Shown here one piece after another: positions 2,901 through 35,920 of a DNA stretch of 37,284 bases; the first letter of the stretch is position 1, and each line of letters starts with the position of its first letter. The notes under the pieces were generated by a model. That model did no database searches. It saw only the letters and a list, made by a program, of their open reading frames with translations, and was not told the DNA's origin. Position numbers and translations under genes: made by a program. This stretch comes from Candidatus Zambryskiibacteriota bacterium (GTDB lineage: Bacteria; Patescibacteriota; Minisyncoccia; Phycocordibacterales; DATDWN01). The stretch is from the NCBI GenBank assembly GCA_009694965.1, contig SIBV01000003.1, forward strand, positions 1 to 37,284, in the 5' to 3' direction.

Positions 2901-3012
2901 TACTAATATACGAATGTAACGAATGATACGAATGGTTACGAATAAGAAAAATCAAGAAGCATTCATTCGTAGACATTTGTAGATTAGTATTATTCGTATA
3001 TTCGTATGTTTA
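2896..3012. repeat. TACGAAT-type palindromic repeat, copy 1
   Basis: ATATACGAATGTAACGAATGATACGAATGGTTACGAAT...CATTCGTAGACATTTGTAGATTAGTATTATTCGTATATTCGTATG; ends about 10 nt before the mutM ATG. Confidence 0.85.
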
Positions 3013-3021
3013 ACTAAAACT

Positions 3022-3918
3022 ATGCCTGAATTACCTGAAGTTGAAAATCTAAGGCTAGGTCTGGAGCGCTATATTCTCGGACAAAAAATATTAAAAGTTA
3101 AAATTAATAAACCTAAACTTGTCTCAGGTAAGGGCAACGCTCGCGTTGCATCCTCCAAAAAAGTCAGCGAATTTATAAATGGTCTCACTAAAGAGAAATT
3201 TATAGCAGTAGAAAGGAGGGCGAAAAATTTAATTTTTAAACTAAGTAACGATAAGATGATTTTAGCTCACCTTAAGATGAGCGGGCAATTTGTATATAAA
3301 GGCAAAAACAAAAAAAGTGTAATAGGTGGTCATCCTATAGAAATTTCTGAAAAAGTTTTACCTAATAAGCACACTCATATTATCTTTGAATTAAATGATG
3401 GGGTTCTGTACTACAACGACACAAGAATGTTTGGCTATGCCCTTTATTACCCAAATGTCGAACAATTTGAAAAAGGAAATCATTTTGAAAACCTAGGCAA
3501 AGAACCGCTTGATAAAAGTTTTACGGCTAAGTATTTTTTTGAATCCCTTAAAAGCAAAAGGAGTAAAATTAAAAGCGTTCTAATGGGCCAAGAAGTGGTT
3601 GTTGGAGTTGGTAATATTTATACTGACGAAAGCCTCTTTGAGGCTGGCATCCTACCTACCCGTTCTGCCCAAAGTCTAAATTTGAATGAAGTCACCAAAC
3701 TTCATAAAGCTATTATTAGAATAATATCCAAAGCAATTAAAGTAGGTGGCTCCTCTGTGGCTACCTACCGTCTCTTGGATGAAAGCCAAGGCAATTATGC
3801 TCGGGAACACAAAGTTTACGGCAAGTCCGGCAAAAACTGCCCCCGCTGCGCTTCCTCTCTTCAAAAAATCCTTATCCAGACACGAACGACAATTTTTTGC
3901 CCAAATTGCCAAAGATAA
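3022..3918 (+). CDS. mutM: formamidopyrimidine-DNA glycosylase
   Basis: N-terminal MPELPEVENL, C-terminal zinc finger CPRCASSLQKILIQTRTTIFCPNCQR. Confidence 0.96.
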   Translation: MPELPEVENLRLGLERYILGQKILKVKINKPKLVSGKGNARVASSKKVSEFINGLTKEKFIAVERRAKNLIFKLSNDKMILAHLKMSGQFVYKGKNKKSVIGGHPIEISEKVLPNKHTHIIFELNDGVLYYNDTRMFGYALYYPNVEQFEKGNHFENLGKEPLDKSFTAKYFFESLKSKRSKIKSVLMGQEVVVGVGNIYTDESLFEAGILPTRSAQSLNLNEVTKLHKAIIRIISKAIKVGGSSVATYRLLDESQGNYAREHKVYGKSGKNCPRCASSLQKILIQTRTTIFCPNCQR

Positions 3919-5419: not shown

Positions 5420-5773
5420 ATGAATACACTTTCAATATTTCCAGACCTTCTAACTTTCAACCTTTTGGCGCCAGCACTTCTCCGATTGGCCTGTGGTTTA
5501 TTTTTATTATATTTAGGTTGGGAAAGATACAAAAAACCGTACAAATGGTCACTCTTTGCATATGTAATTGTTGGAATATTACTAATTCTAGGACTATACA
5601 CTCAAATCGCAGTAATTGTCGCACTTATAATCTTAAAATTTGATTTTTGGGAAAGTAGAAAAACCACTTCCATTTCTAGAGAAAAATATATTCTCCAAGT
5701 AATGGTAAATGTCGTGCTTATTTCACTATTATTTACGGGACCGGGGTTCTTGGCTTTTGATTTACCGTTGTAG
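5420..5773 (+). CDS. DoxX-like membrane protein
   Basis: ORF 5405..5773; ATG at 5420 (MNTLSIFPDLLTFNLLAPALLRLACGLFLLYLGWERY) preferred because the -10 TACAAT is just upstream. Confidence 0.6.
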   Translation: MNTLSIFPDLLTFNLLAPALLRLACGLFLLYLGWERYKKPYKWSLFAYVIVGILLILGLYTQIAVIVALIILKFDFWESRKTTSISREKYILQVMVNVVLISLLFTGPGFLAFDLPL

Positions 5774-10105: not shown

Positions 10106-10112
10106 GTGAAAA

Positions 10113-10220
10113 AATTTTCAGTTTTCAATTCTCAATTTTCATTGAATTTTCAATGAATTAATTTTCAAAATTGGAAATTGCAACATTGATTGAAAATTGC
10201 AAAATTGATAATTGAAAATT
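10113..10220. repeat. TTTTCAATT-type palindromic element, copy upstream of polA
   Basis: AATTTTCAGTTTTCAATTCTCAATTTTCATTGAATTTTCAATG...CAACATTGATTGAAAATTGCAAAATTGATAATTGAAAATT. Confidence 0.85.
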
Positions 10221-10239
10221 ACCTCCATTATACCACCCC

Positions 10240-13629: not shown

Positions 13630-13750
13630 AACTTTCAGATTTGAGCCAAGTTCAAGGCGAAAGACTTGAAAAAGTACGAGTCGTATTAGATATACGATGA
13701 GGATTTTTGAGAGTCTTTCAACGAAGAAATTGGCCAAATATGGAAGTTTG
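13630..13750. repeat. long-hairpin element, copy 1
   Basis: AACTTTCAGATTTGAGCCAAGTTCAAGGC[GAAAGACT..AGTCTTTC]AACGAAGAAATTGGCCAAATATGGAAGTT; homologous to 19090-19210. Confidence 0.8.
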
Positions 13751-13918
13751 GCTCCAAAGCATAAATCTCTAAGCAACACTTTTAATAGTAGATACCAAAA
13801 GCTAAGTATTTTACAAAGGATAATTCCAGTGTATTACACAAGGTAATAACCAGAACGTCCTCGCAGAAAGACTCGTAAACGTAAACGCTTAGTTGCTTAG
13901 AGATTTATATTTTGGAGC
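13751..13918. repeat. 27-bp inverted repeat flanking about 114 bp
   Basis: GCTCCAAAGCATAAATCTCTAAGCAAC (13751-13777) / GTTGCTTAGAGATTTATATTTTGGAGC (13892-13918), 2 mismatches. Confidence 0.8.
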
Positions 13919-19089: not shown

Positions 19090-19210
19090 AACTTTCACAA
19101 TCTGGATGAAGTTCAAGGCGGAATGAAAAAATGTGAGGAGTCTTACTCGTTGTAAGATGACGAGAATTTTTTATATTCCAACGCAGAAATTCGCCAGATT
19201 TGGAAGTTTT
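19090..19210. repeat. long-hairpin element, copy 2
   Basis: AACTTTCACAATCTGGATGAAGTTCAAGGCGGAATGAAAAAATGTGAGGAGTCTTAC..GTAAGATGACGAGAATTTTTTATATTCCAACGCAGAAATTCGCCAGATTTGGAAGTT. Confidence 0.8.
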
Positions 19211-23282: not shown

Positions 23283-23407
23283 TGTTTTTAAATTATTTAG
23301 TTTTATATCCTTATATTATATAGTTATTATCTTACTGATTCAATGTTGACCCCGTTAGAGTTTTACAATTTGAAATAATTTATTTTTATGGTATAATAGA
23401 ATTGTTA

Positions 23408-23896
23408 TGTTGGATAAGTGCTCTTTAGCTATTTATAGCTAAAGGGAGGAAAGTCCGAACATCAAGTTTAGATTTATCTAAACAAGAGTAGCGGGTAACG
23501 CCCGTCGGGAGTAATCCTAGAGGTGCGAGCAGTGACGTCCGAGGCGAAAGCCAGAGAATTCCGCTGCGTTAAAGCAGATGGAATAATTTTATGGAAACAT
23601 AAAAGTGAAACGGCAAAATCCTTACTTTGATGCAAGGCCGTACCCGACTGCACCTCACTGGGTTCAGTGCAGAATTTTCAATTTTCAATTTCTAATTTTC
23701 AAACAATTCTCAATGTATCAAAGGGGAATTAATTCATTGAAAACTGAAAATTAGAAATTAGAAATTCTGTCCGAGCAAAGCGAGGTGCAGTTGGGGGTGC
23801 CGCTTGATCACCGTGGTAACACGAGCGACAGATAAATACTTATCGTCGAGCACCAGTTCTGGTGCTCGATACAGAATTCGGCTTATAGACACAACA
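23408..23896 (+). ncRNA. rnpB: RNase P RNA carrying an inserted palindromic element
   Basis: CR-I GGGAGGAAAGTCCGAACA, ACGGCAAAATCC..GATGCAAGGCC, GCTTGA, 3' ACAGAATTCGGCTTATAGAC; TATAAT at 23392-23397. Confidence 0.93.
23672..23766. repeat. TTTTCAATT-type palindromic element inside rnpB
   Basis: GAATTTTCAATTTTCAATTTCTAATTTTCA...TGAAAACTGAAAATTAGAAATTAGAAATTC. Confidence 0.9.
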
Positions 23897-23901
23897 AAAA
23901 T

Positions 23902-25241: not shown

Positions 25242-25281
25242 ATTTTATTAACCAACCCTCATCTCTCTACCCTTCTTACAT

Positions 25282-25306
25282 TATGGCAAGGTTAAACCTT
25301 GCCATA
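25282..25306. repeat. REP-like hairpin, left flank of RAYT
   Basis: TATGGCAAGG-TTAAA-CCTTGCCATA. Confidence 0.85.
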
Positions 25307-25333
25307 TGAAGAAAGAAAAACTATAATATACAG

Positions 25334-26011
25334 ATGACACGTTCAACCACAATCTCAATTGATGAATTTTATCACGTTTATAATAGGGGTACTGAGAAAA
25401 GAAAAATATTTAACACACGGTATGATTACGAACGTTTTATAGCTCTTCTCTATCTGTGCAACTCTACTGAACCAATACGCATAAGAAGTAAGTACTTAAA
25501 TGAAATGCTTGATACTAAGCGCGGTAAAAAACTAGTAGACATTGGTGCGTACTGTCTCATGCCAAATCACTTTCATCTTTTGTTATACGAATGTGTTGAG
25601 GATGGCACCAGTCTGTTTATGCAGAAACTAACAACAGCCTACACGATGTATTTCAATAAGAAAAACGATAGGGTTGGAAGTTTGTTTCAAGGTACATTCA
25701 AAGCTGAGCATCTAGACGATGATGAATATTTAAAATATATTTTTGCATACATTCACTTGAATCCTGTTAAACTTATTGAACCTAAATGGAGGGAGGATGG
25801 GATCAAAAACCGCACTGGAGCAAAAAACTTTTTGAAAAATTATTCATATTCAAGTTACTCAGAATTTACCGGAGTCGACAGAAAAGAAAAAGTCATCCTC
25901 TCCCCTACTGCCTTTCCAAAGTATTTTGAAAAGGTGGATGACTTTCAAAAAATGATTAACTTCTGGATCGAGTTCAAGAATGAATACCTTCTGCCAGAGA
26001 AAGAAATCTAA
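25334..26011 (+). mobile_element. Y1/HUH transposase of the RAYT (REP-associated tyrosine transposase, IS200-like) family
   Basis: DEFYHVYNRGTEKRKIF..., HUH motif MPNHFHLLL, AYIHLNPVK Tyr region, C-terminal YSSYSEFTG; flanked by REP-like hairpins. Confidence 0.93.
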
Positions 26012-26019
26012 AAACTAGA

Positions 26020-26048
26020 AGTATGGCGAGGTTTAACCTCGCCATACT
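26020..26048. repeat. REP-like hairpin, right flank of RAYT
   Basis: AGTATGGCGAGG-TTTAA-CCTCGCCATACT. Confidence 0.85.
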
Positions 26049-26114
26049 ATGAGGGAGAAGGTGTTTTGGTAGACCAATTATTTGGACCAATTATTTTTTT
26101 ATTTTACAGACCGA

Positions 26115-27677: not shown

Positions 27678-28643
27678 TTACAGTTTTTCTAAAATCTTTA
27701 CCAATGAATCGCTTAAATTCTTTACTGATGCATCATCGATAATAGATAGGGACAAAACGTTTTCGTGGGTTTTTTGGAATAGTTTAATGTGTGATTTTAG
27801 AGTCTTTTCGTCAATCAGATCAATTTTTGTTAGCAAGACAACTTCGGGTTTTTTCAAAAGTTCTTTATCATAAAGTGAAAGTTCCTTTCGGATAGTTTTG
27901 TAAACAGCCAAAGGTTTTTCATTTTCACTAGAAATACAGTGAAGAAGCATTTTGGTTCTAGCAATGTGTCGAAGAAACTTGTGCCCCAACCCCTTTCCCT
28001 CGTGAGCCCCTTCTATAAGTCCTGGTATATCTGCAATAACGAAACCATACAAATCTCCTAGGTTTGGTGAAAGTGTAGTGAATTGATAACTTCCAACTTT
28101 TGCTTTGGCCCGAGTCAAGGAATTCAGTAAACTTGATTTTCCGGCATTTGGTAGACCGACAAGTCCCAAGTCAACGACTAGTTTTAATTCAACAAAAAAC
28201 TCTCCGCCCTGTCCAAGCTTTCCTCTGGTAGACTCTTGAGGCTTAACGTTTGTTGGTCCTTTGAAGTGGTCGTTTCCATACCCTCCCCATCCACCCTTCA
28301 AAAAGAATATCGTCTCTTCATTCAAGATCTCAACTTCTTCAAGAGTTTCTGTATTTTTTACAACTGTGCCAATAGGCAACTCAATGGTTATATCTTTACC
28401 AGATCTTCCGTGCATACATTTACCTCTCCCTTTTTGACCATCTTCAGCTTTAAAATCTTTTATGAACTTATACTCGGCCAGTCTTCCAATATCGTGAACG
28501 CCTTTGAGATAGACACTTCCGCCCTTACCACCGTCTCCTCCCCCAGGACCTGCATGGTCAATACCCTTCTCATGCTTCCATGAAACTATGCCGTCCCCTC
28601 CGTTTCCAGCCCATATATTGAGTGTTAATTCATCTATAAACAT
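27678..28643 (-). CDS. obgE: Obg/CgtA family GTPase
   Basis: MFIDELTLNIWAGNGGDGIVSWKHEKGIDHAGPGGGDGGKGGSVYL...GLVGLPNAGKSSLLNSLTRAKAKVGSYQFTTLSPNLG...ADIPGLIEGAHEGKGLGHKFLRH. Confidence 0.97.
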   Translation of the reverse strand: MFIDELTLNIWAGNGGDGIVSWKHEKGIDHAGPGGGDGGKGGSVYLKGVHDIGRLAEYKFIKDFKAEDGQKGRGKCMHGRSGKDITIELPIGTVVKNTETLEEVEILNEETIFFLKGGWGGYGNDHFKGPTNVKPQESTRGKLGQGGEFFVELKLVVDLGLVGLPNAGKSSLLNSLTRAKAKVGSYQFTTLSPNLGDLYGFVIADIPGLIEGAHEGKGLGHKFLRHIARTKMLLHCISSENEKPLAVYKTIRKELSLYDKELLKKPEVVLLTKIDLIDEKTLKSHIKLFQKTHENVLSLSIIDDASVKNLSDSLVKILEKL

Positions 28644-28661
28644 GAGCTCATGTTATCACAT

Positions 28662-28749
28662 AATTTTCAATTTACAATTCTCAATTTTCAATGAATTTTC
28701 AATGAATTAAAGGGTTTTTTGGAAATTGTAAAATTGAAAATTGAAAATT
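28662..28749. repeat. TTTTCAATT-type palindromic element upstream of obgE
   Basis: AATTTTCAATTTACAATTCTCAATTTTCAATGAATTTTCAATG...GGAAATTGTAAAATTGAAAATTGAAAATT. Confidence 0.85.
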
Positions 28750-28839
28750 TTTTTTTCAATTTTAGTGAAAAAATAGTTATCCCCAACATAGAAATTTGCA
28801 AAAAAATTACAATCTGGTACAAATATGGAAATTCCAATA

Positions 28840-28952
28840 CGAATATGCGAATGAAACGAATAATGCGAATGTATACGAATAAATACAATCCGTTTTCTAT
28901 CATTCGTAGCCATTCGTAGCTTGGTATTATTCGTTAATTCGTATATTTAATT
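28840..28952. repeat. TACGAAT-type palindromic repeat, copy 2
   Basis: ATACGAATATGCGAATGAAACGAATAATGCGAATGTATACGAAT...CATTCGTAGCCATTCGTAGCTTGGTATTATTCGTTAATTCGTATATTTAATT. Confidence 0.88.
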
Positions 28953-28960
28953 AAAAAATT

Positions 28961-29152
28961 ATGGATGACACATTAGACCCAGAAAAAGAGATTGATGAAA
29001 CAGAAGACGAAGTGGATGACGATGCCATCCTAGGTTTGGTGCCTAAAAAAGGGAAGGTGGCAAAAGAAGAAGACGATTCTGTGGATGCCCTGGCTGAGGA
29101 GGAAGAGGAGATATTGCCGGAAGATTCGTTTGACGATGTTGACTTGTTGTAA
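28961..29152 (+). CDS. 63-aa highly acidic hypothetical protein
   Basis: MDDTLDPEKEIDETEDEVDDDAILGLVPKKGKVAKEEDDSVDALAEEEEEILPEDSFDDVDLL, start adjacent to a TACGAAT repeat. Confidence 0.6.
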   Translation: MDDTLDPEKEIDETEDEVDDDAILGLVPKKGKVAKEEDDSVDALAEEEEEILPEDSFDDVDLL

Positions 29153-32692: not shown

Positions 32693-32947
32693 TTATCTAA
32701 TATCTACTATCTTAAGTCCTGTTAACTGTGTTATTTCCTCTATAATTCTTGTTTTAAATATAAATAGCTTATTTTTTACTCCAGATGAAGCCTTCACCAA
32801 CAAAACACAATCCTTTAACTCAACATCCTCCGGACTTATTTTGATTCCTGTATTTTTATCTATGATTTCTAAAATCTGTCTTCGGTGTAAATCTATAGAA
32901 TTGAGTTTTTTAGTAAACCTTTCTAGATATTTTTGAATATTAAACAT
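32693..32947 (-). CDS. 84-aa protein, possible DciA/DUF721-like domain
   Basis: ISPEDVELKDCVLLVKASSGVKNKLFIFKTRIIEEITQLTGLKIVDIR resembles the small KH-like DciA core; location next to dnaN-dnaA. Confidence 0.45.
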   Translation of the reverse strand: MFNIQKYLERFTKKLNSIDLHRRQILEIIDKNTGIKISPEDVELKDCVLLVKASSGVKNKLFIFKTRIIEEITQLTGLKIVDIR

Positions 32948-32949
32948 AG

Positions 32950-33066
32950 TAGATAAACATACTAATTAACGAATAGAGAAATAATATGAATGACTACGAA
33001 TTAGAGAATTAAAAATTTTATTCGTTGCCATTCGTATATTTGTATTGTTCGCATATTCGTATATTT
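32950..33066. repeat. TACGAAT-type palindromic repeat, copy 3
   Basis: ACATACTAATTAACGAATAGAGAAATAATATGAATGACTACGAATT...TTATTCGTTGCCATTCGTATATTTGTATTGTTCGCATATTCGTATATTTATT. Confidence 0.82.
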
Positions 33067-33069
33067 ATT

Positions 33070-35722: not shown

Positions 35723-35817
35723 ATTGAATTACATTATATAGTGAATGAAAAAATATAATACTTGTTAAAAACCTCAAGATATGTTAGTAATATGTGTATA
35801 TGGTGTGGATAGGTAAA

Positions 35818-35914
35818 CATACGAATGATGCGAATGTATGCGAATAATACAACCAAATCATAATTCTATTCGTAGTCATTCGTAGATTCGCATTATTCGT
35901 TAATTCGTATATTA
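35818..35914. repeat. TACGAAT-type palindromic repeat, copy 4
   Basis: ACATACGAATGATGCGAATGTATGCGAATAATAC...ATTCGTAGTCATTCGTAGATTCGCATTATTCGTTAATTCGTATATTAAATT. Confidence 0.88.
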
Positions 35915-35920
35915 AATTCA

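Follow-up and report, generated by a model that had tools for sequence, protein, structure and literature searches.

A short palindrome resembling miniature inverted-repeat elements (MITEs) has been inserted repeatedly before start codons in the genome of the ultra-small Candidatus Zambryskiibacteriota bacterium, and its start-facing terminus is most likely a -10 box, an interpretation to which we give about an even chance. The element is repeated within the genome, is an insertion relative to related genomes, adjoins start codons, has ends that differ between the start side and the other side, and carries a hexamer at the spacing found before native genes. In the proposed explanation, a non-coding MITE-like element of about 115 bp would have been mobilised by an enzyme, with repeated insertions at stop/start and promoter/start junctions, and would now lie immediately 5' of start codons in an apparently leaderless genome that lacks Shine-Dalgarno (SD) sequences. 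The terminus, of the form ATTCG-TATATT-N5..8-ATG, would give the gene an additional, downstream, leaderless promoter, and copies with a good -10 sequence at the start-facing end may have been retained by selection for transcription initiation there.

The palindromic element and its copies

The window, which is the whole 37,284-nt stretch of DNA that was analysed, is one contig (C21) of the source genome (G000), which comprises 527 kb in 29 contigs and is approximately 87% complete. A profile search of this genome, fetched by stretches, found an imperfect palindrome of about 115 bp at 35 loci. The copies are non-coding and range from approximately 85 to 140 bp, half-elements included; the start-facing arm stands alone in six loci and the other arm alone in two. 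Read towards the gene, the element begins 0-11 nt after the upstream stop codon with (TAGW)TAAACATACGAAT, continues through more T[AG]CGAAT units to a short loop, and then runs through ATTCGTA units and ATTCGTATATTAAATTC to the ATG. Its arms are imperfect inverted repeats, and the terminal inverted repeats are TTAAACATACGAAT ... ATTCGTATRTTTAA. No Rfam family matched at the elements.

There were 24 occurrences of ATTCGTA in the window compared to 4.6 expected from dinucleotide shuffles, a number reached by 0 of 100 shuffles, and the terminal 19-mer was found four times with three or fewer mismatches (0.04 expected). The four window copies of TACGAAT/ATTCGTA units described in the initial annotation were all recovered at the same places, far above chance. 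The first (2901..3021, plus strand; RNA fold z -4.96) occupies all of the DNA from the ruvA stop (2900) to the mutM start (3022) and ends in GTATGTTTAACTAAAACT-ATG. The second (28838..28960, plus strand; z -4.57) lies between obgE, on the minus strand with its start at 28643, and a 63-amino-acid acidic ORF starting at 28961, and ends in GTATATTTAATTAAAAAATT-ATG. The third (32948..33069, minus strand; z -4.25) takes up all the space that separates the dnaN stop (33070) from the start of an 84-amino-acid ORF (32947), both genes being on the minus strand, and ends in GTATGTTTATCTACT-ATG. The fourth (35814..35920, plus strand; z -3.60) is preceded by the conserved native promoter of rpmH, is followed by the start of that gene (35921), and ends in GTATATTAAATTCA-ATG.

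An arm was said to end close before a start codon in each case, and it does: the ATG follows the last ATTCGTA unit by 15 nt (mutM), 17 nt (ORF at 28961), 12 nt (ORF at 32947, minus strand), and 11 nt (rpmH). The TATATT hexamer attributed to the arm was exact in two copies, that at 28840 (28942..28947, plus strand, 13 nt before the ATG of the ORF at 28961) and that at 35818 (35908..35913, plus strand, 7 nt before the rpmH ATG), and was TATGTT in the mutM and minus-strand copies. The 84-amino-acid protein had no match in Pfam or NCBIfam, so the label "DciA-like" given to this ORF is unverified. Because the element is palindromic, its orientation (type A or B) was ambiguous from the first profile, and the analysis was repeated with interiors only. 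In the third window copy the interior runs opposite to that of most copies. Recombination between the arms is another possible source of inverted interiors with fixed ends.

Start-codon adjacency and insertion relative to other genomes

The initial annotation had proposed a genome-wide test of whether repeat ends are biased to start codons, and such a bias was found. In 32 of the 35 copies in G000 (91%) an ATG lies no more than 17 nt past the last ATTCGTA unit, the distance at pilB being measured from a degenerate last unit, and the same kind of end faces the gene. For intergenic points picked at random and read in one given direction, the chance of such an ATG is 3.4% (binomial p ~1e-34, even allowing either end); the home-made gene finder overlooks short genes such as rpmJ and rpmH and therefore inflates the intergenic space of this null, an effect far below the gap between 3.4% and 91%. 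The starts of most element-bearing genes were confirmed by orthologs in G002, a congener, which aligned from residue 1-3. The commonest offset of the ATG past the last unit is 10 nt in G000, and this was also the commonest genuine ATG distance among 70 loci fetched from relatives, with spurious GTATG matches set aside.

In long spacers the element adjoins the start rather than the stop (dnaJ, nusA, gap, secE, rpmH, C13:2910, and tgt), and in tgt and C20:1913 the start codon lies within the element's own GTATG. The exceptions to start adjacency are the copy at C7:13612, which has a stop beside it and a conserved promoter-like sequence downstream, and the two left-arm remnants at C1:12734 and C24:10345. 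The element-bearing genes include core genes (rpmJ, rpsK, rplQ, rpsR, rplI, nusG, nusA, rpoC, recA, and topA), and many copies are inside tight gene pairs, for example upstream of rpoC and between secE and nusG.

DnaA of G002 is 89% identical to that of G000, and no copy of the element was found in this genome, which was covered in full (674 kb). A pattern search in three further congeners returned zero matches. Comparison of 30 syntenic junctions showed that the spacer is commonly about 125 nt in G000 vs 0-40 nt in G002: 132 vs 21 nt for rpsM|rpsK and 129 vs 24 nt for rpoA|rplQ (rpsM and rpoA being named from gene order alone), 130 vs 12 nt for secE|nusG, and 126 vs 2 nt at C9:6063. The short gaps at matching junctions indicate that the element behaves like DNA inserted after a stop codon and before a start codon, and the 2-nt gap at the last of these indicates that the TATATTAAATTC tail arrived with the element. 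Empty sites were found in relatives at the G002 junctions and at rpmH, nusG, and pilB. At rpmH the native promoter-like sequence (TTGTTA ... TAGTAAT; 35761..35795, plus strand) is conserved in the compared relatives and is kept 5' of the inserted element, and G000 alone has the element between this promoter and the ATG. The closest copies in G000 are approximately 91% identical and are located at unrelated genes, which suggests fairly recent copying. The empty sites and these similar pairs within one genome bear out the earlier suggestion that the repeat transposes.

Four or more genera of the family carry the element. Among the relatives' copies with a recognisable gene, 15 of 37 were at genes also occupied in G000, approximately six times the 2.5 expected. 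With flanks trimmed, four of the 15 copies at orthologous sites were closest to each other (1.5 expected), and with flanks included many were closest in the same ranking. That most orthologous-site copies are not mutual closest matches favours recurrent insertion for most sites. The rpsR copies of G000 and G016 were reciprocal best matches, and inheritance appears to be favoured for a few shared sites, namely rpsR and perhaps nusG. There was no excess of target site duplications over shuffled pairing in 21 two-armed copies (k 3-6), whose boundaries are uncertain in AT-rich DNA, and no transposase partner sharing the element ends was found among the Y1_Tnp loci, which were the loci examined. 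The case for mobility therefore rests on the comparative evidence.

The start-facing end and competing explanations

Before native genes the frequency of TAWWWT hexamers is highest at exactly -12 from the ATG, at 10.1% vs a background of 1.7% in G000 and 11.9% vs 1.4% in G002. SD-like motifs were no commoner than in shuffled sequence (4 vs 5), and no SD signal was found in G000 and G002. A hexamer at -12 together with an absent SD is the layout of leaderless mRNAs, and this genome appears to use leaderless, SD-less mRNAs. The offset of 10 nt places the TATATT of the element at -12, matching the native -10 position. In G000, TATA[AT] was present at 24 of 28 start-facing ends vs 5 of 32 other ends (p 6e-8); the asymmetry was weaker in the relatives (18 of 34 vs 18 of 63, p 0.03). 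Four of the copies with inverted interiors have TATATT or TATATA where they face the start and TATGTT on the stop side, and the window copy at 32948 has the reverse of this pattern.

No -35 hexamer was recognised at normal spacing from the element -10. At rpmH, pilB, dnaJ, nusA, and secE the native promoter is kept upstream, with the element between it and the ATG, which argues that expression at several loci is not dependent on the element, and G002 has the same genes without it. The promoter claimed for the arm in the initial annotation was thus upheld in part: in its favour are the spacing of -12, identical to that of the -10 boxes of native leaderless genes, and the excess of TATA[AT] at ends that face a start; against it are the failure to find a -35, the persistence of native promoters 5' of the element, and a palindrome family that adjoins starts although it has no such end. 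Judged from sequence, the element end is a plausible promoter, with the chances for and against roughly balanced.

Unrelated palindromes are found at the same start-codon sites in relatives, which makes the main rival a hot spot without promoter function, where unrelated palindromes insert, or are tolerated, only between the promoter or transcription start (or the upstream stop) and the start codon, and where the terminal TATATT is incidental to an AT-rich end. At pilB, 10 of 16 genomes have an insert between a conserved TATAAT and the ATG, from at least two unrelated families; at nusG, four of 16 genomes are occupied, one of them by a different palindrome; and at rpmH several relatives have other inserts at the same place. 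The AATTTTCAAT repeats, a family without a TATATT-type end, are no more than 16 nt from a start at several of eight loci in G000, and the excess of relatives' copies at genes occupied in G000, mostly not closest kin, is also consistent with a hot spot. Such a site leaves both the asymmetry of TATA[AT] between the two ends and the match to the native -12 spacing unexplained, and another repeat family of G000 prefers stop codons; we regard it as possible but on the unlikely side. Somewhat doubtful is a related scheme in which several unrelated mobile palindromes are targeted, in this family, to the interval between transcription start and start codon, for example by transposing as single strands into R-loops or the open complexes of promoters. 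The TACGAAT kind would then be a portable junction that supplies a hairpin on the stop side, a leaderless -10 and, in two copies (tgt and C20:1913), the start codon as well.

The element might instead act as RNA: read from an upstream promoter or operon, it would form a long hairpin, in the 5'-leader or between cistrons, which would either be cleaved by RNase III or keep an AU-rich, unstructured start codon insulated. The folds of all six copies tested were better than those of shuffled sequences (z -3.0 to -5.0), the ATG is mostly in the single-stranded tail of the folds, and both the location of many copies within tight gene pairs and the upstream native promoters would fit. Palindromic DNA arms give a hairpin automatically, though, and the consensus fold is weak with essentially no covariation, the pairs being held by identity; since the G002 orthologs also manage without the element, this explanation seems improbable. 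Least probable of all is that the element is not mobile but an ancient operator, passed on vertically, at which a regulator of housekeeping genes acts. The core nature of the target genes, the 15 of 37 relatives' copies at the same genes, and the reciprocal rpsR copies are what such a regulon would predict, but it is at odds with the lack of copies in G002 and of pattern matches in the three further congeners, with copies about 91% identical at unrelated G000 genes, and with most orthologous-site copies not being mutual closest matches.

If the element ends are promoters, as in the preferred explanation, a leaderless genome would be especially easily rewired, as TATATT and 6 nt before an ATG would suffice; a single insertion could detach a gene from its operon, for instance at the junction upstream of rpoC or at secE|nusG. 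The element may then be a repeat spreading as a ready-made gene switch. If the ends are not promoters, it has to be explained why unrelated repeats share a hot spot a few nucleotides wide at start codons. Direct tests of the question are possible in either case, because a single family contains both occupied and empty sites at the same core genes.

Known mobile elements and other repeats in the genome

MITEs are non-coding, multi-copy sequences of approximately 50-600 bp with terminal inverted repeats, a fixed-length target duplication, and an autonomous partner. The element is likewise short, non-coding, and multi-copy, with terminal inverted repeats and empty sites in relatives. REP sequences and REPINs are built of 20-40 bp palindromes tagged GTAG/CGTC at one end, and the RAYT (Y1) transposase gene is flanked by the same palindrome. 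These too are extragenic palindromes, and G000 holds four Y1_Tnp genes, but the element is about 115 bp with many ATTCGTA units rather than a 20-40 bp palindrome, and GTAG occurs only within it and is absent from its termini. A link to RAYT/Y1 was considered and rejected; all four Y1_Tnp loci have other palindromes within 900 nt.

That MITEs can carry mobile promoters is established, best for the Correia elements (CREE) of Neisseria (PMC10969869). These are short non-coding palindromes at many loci, mostly directly upstream of genes, with sigma70-type promoters (PMC10969869). Inversion of these elements is known, and one is located directly downstream of the mtrCDE promoter (PMC10969869). Compared by description, both kinds are short non-coding palindromes found at many loci immediately upstream of genes, as 32 of the 35 copies described here are; the element differs in its near-absolute facing of starts, its leaderless spacing, the lack of a recognised -35, and the lack of a detected target duplication. 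Other prokaryotic MITEs that carry promoters are MITEAba12, BrickBuilt, and QMITE1 (PMC10969869). The element resembles these in being small and multi-copy, with terminal inverted repeats, no ORF, and promoter-like sequence, but neither a parent transposon with matching ends nor a target duplication was found for it. We filed it as a variant of the MITE-type mobile promoters such as Correia elements, the closest known kind. Its unusual features are that it adjoins start codons almost without exception, that its spacing is that of leaderless mRNAs, and that unrelated repeats use the same start-codon site. A search of one literature library found no paper on such elements in Patescibacteria, and in an exact-match scan of named genomes the matches outside Patescibacteria looked like unrelated repeats or chance.

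Several other repeats were observed. The IS200-like (Y1_Tnp) gene of the window (25334-26011) is flanked by GGCAAGGTTAAACCTTGCC / GGCGAGGTTTAACCTCGCC palindromes (25275-26053), and the three further Y1_Tnp loci in G000 each have their own palindromes. The RNase P RNA gene (window 23402-23901) contains an internal AATTTTCAAT palindrome of approximately 110 nt (insert ~23666-23775). The RNase P match is approximately 350-400 nt in six genomes (G002, G004, G006, G009, G010, and G012) and 440-505 nt in eight (G000, G001, G003, G005, G008, G011, G014, and G016), and these two length classes suggest repeated insertions into the ribozyme. Palindromes of the AATTTTCAAT/ATTGAAAATT type lie within about 16 nt of starts at C8:3227, C6:23078, and window positions 10106-10239 and 28657-28765, and also at the pilB start in G003, G008, and G011. 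A third repeat family (CTTCCAAAT...; window 13672-13760 and 19137-19209, C1:6720, C12:9350) begins directly at stop codons in seven of nine loci, the opposite preference to the element.

Between the native promoter and the start, nusA (C7 ~5700-5765) and secE-nusG (C15 ~3640-3672) have terminator-like hairpins with a U run that are conserved in G000 and G002 and look like leader attenuators. The dnaA-rpmH intergenic block (TTATATAG...ACTTGTTAAAA...ATATGTTARTAATATGTGTA; window 35740-35800, dnaA-rpmH spacers L072-L085) is highly conserved and is probably the divergent dnaA/rpmH promoter region.
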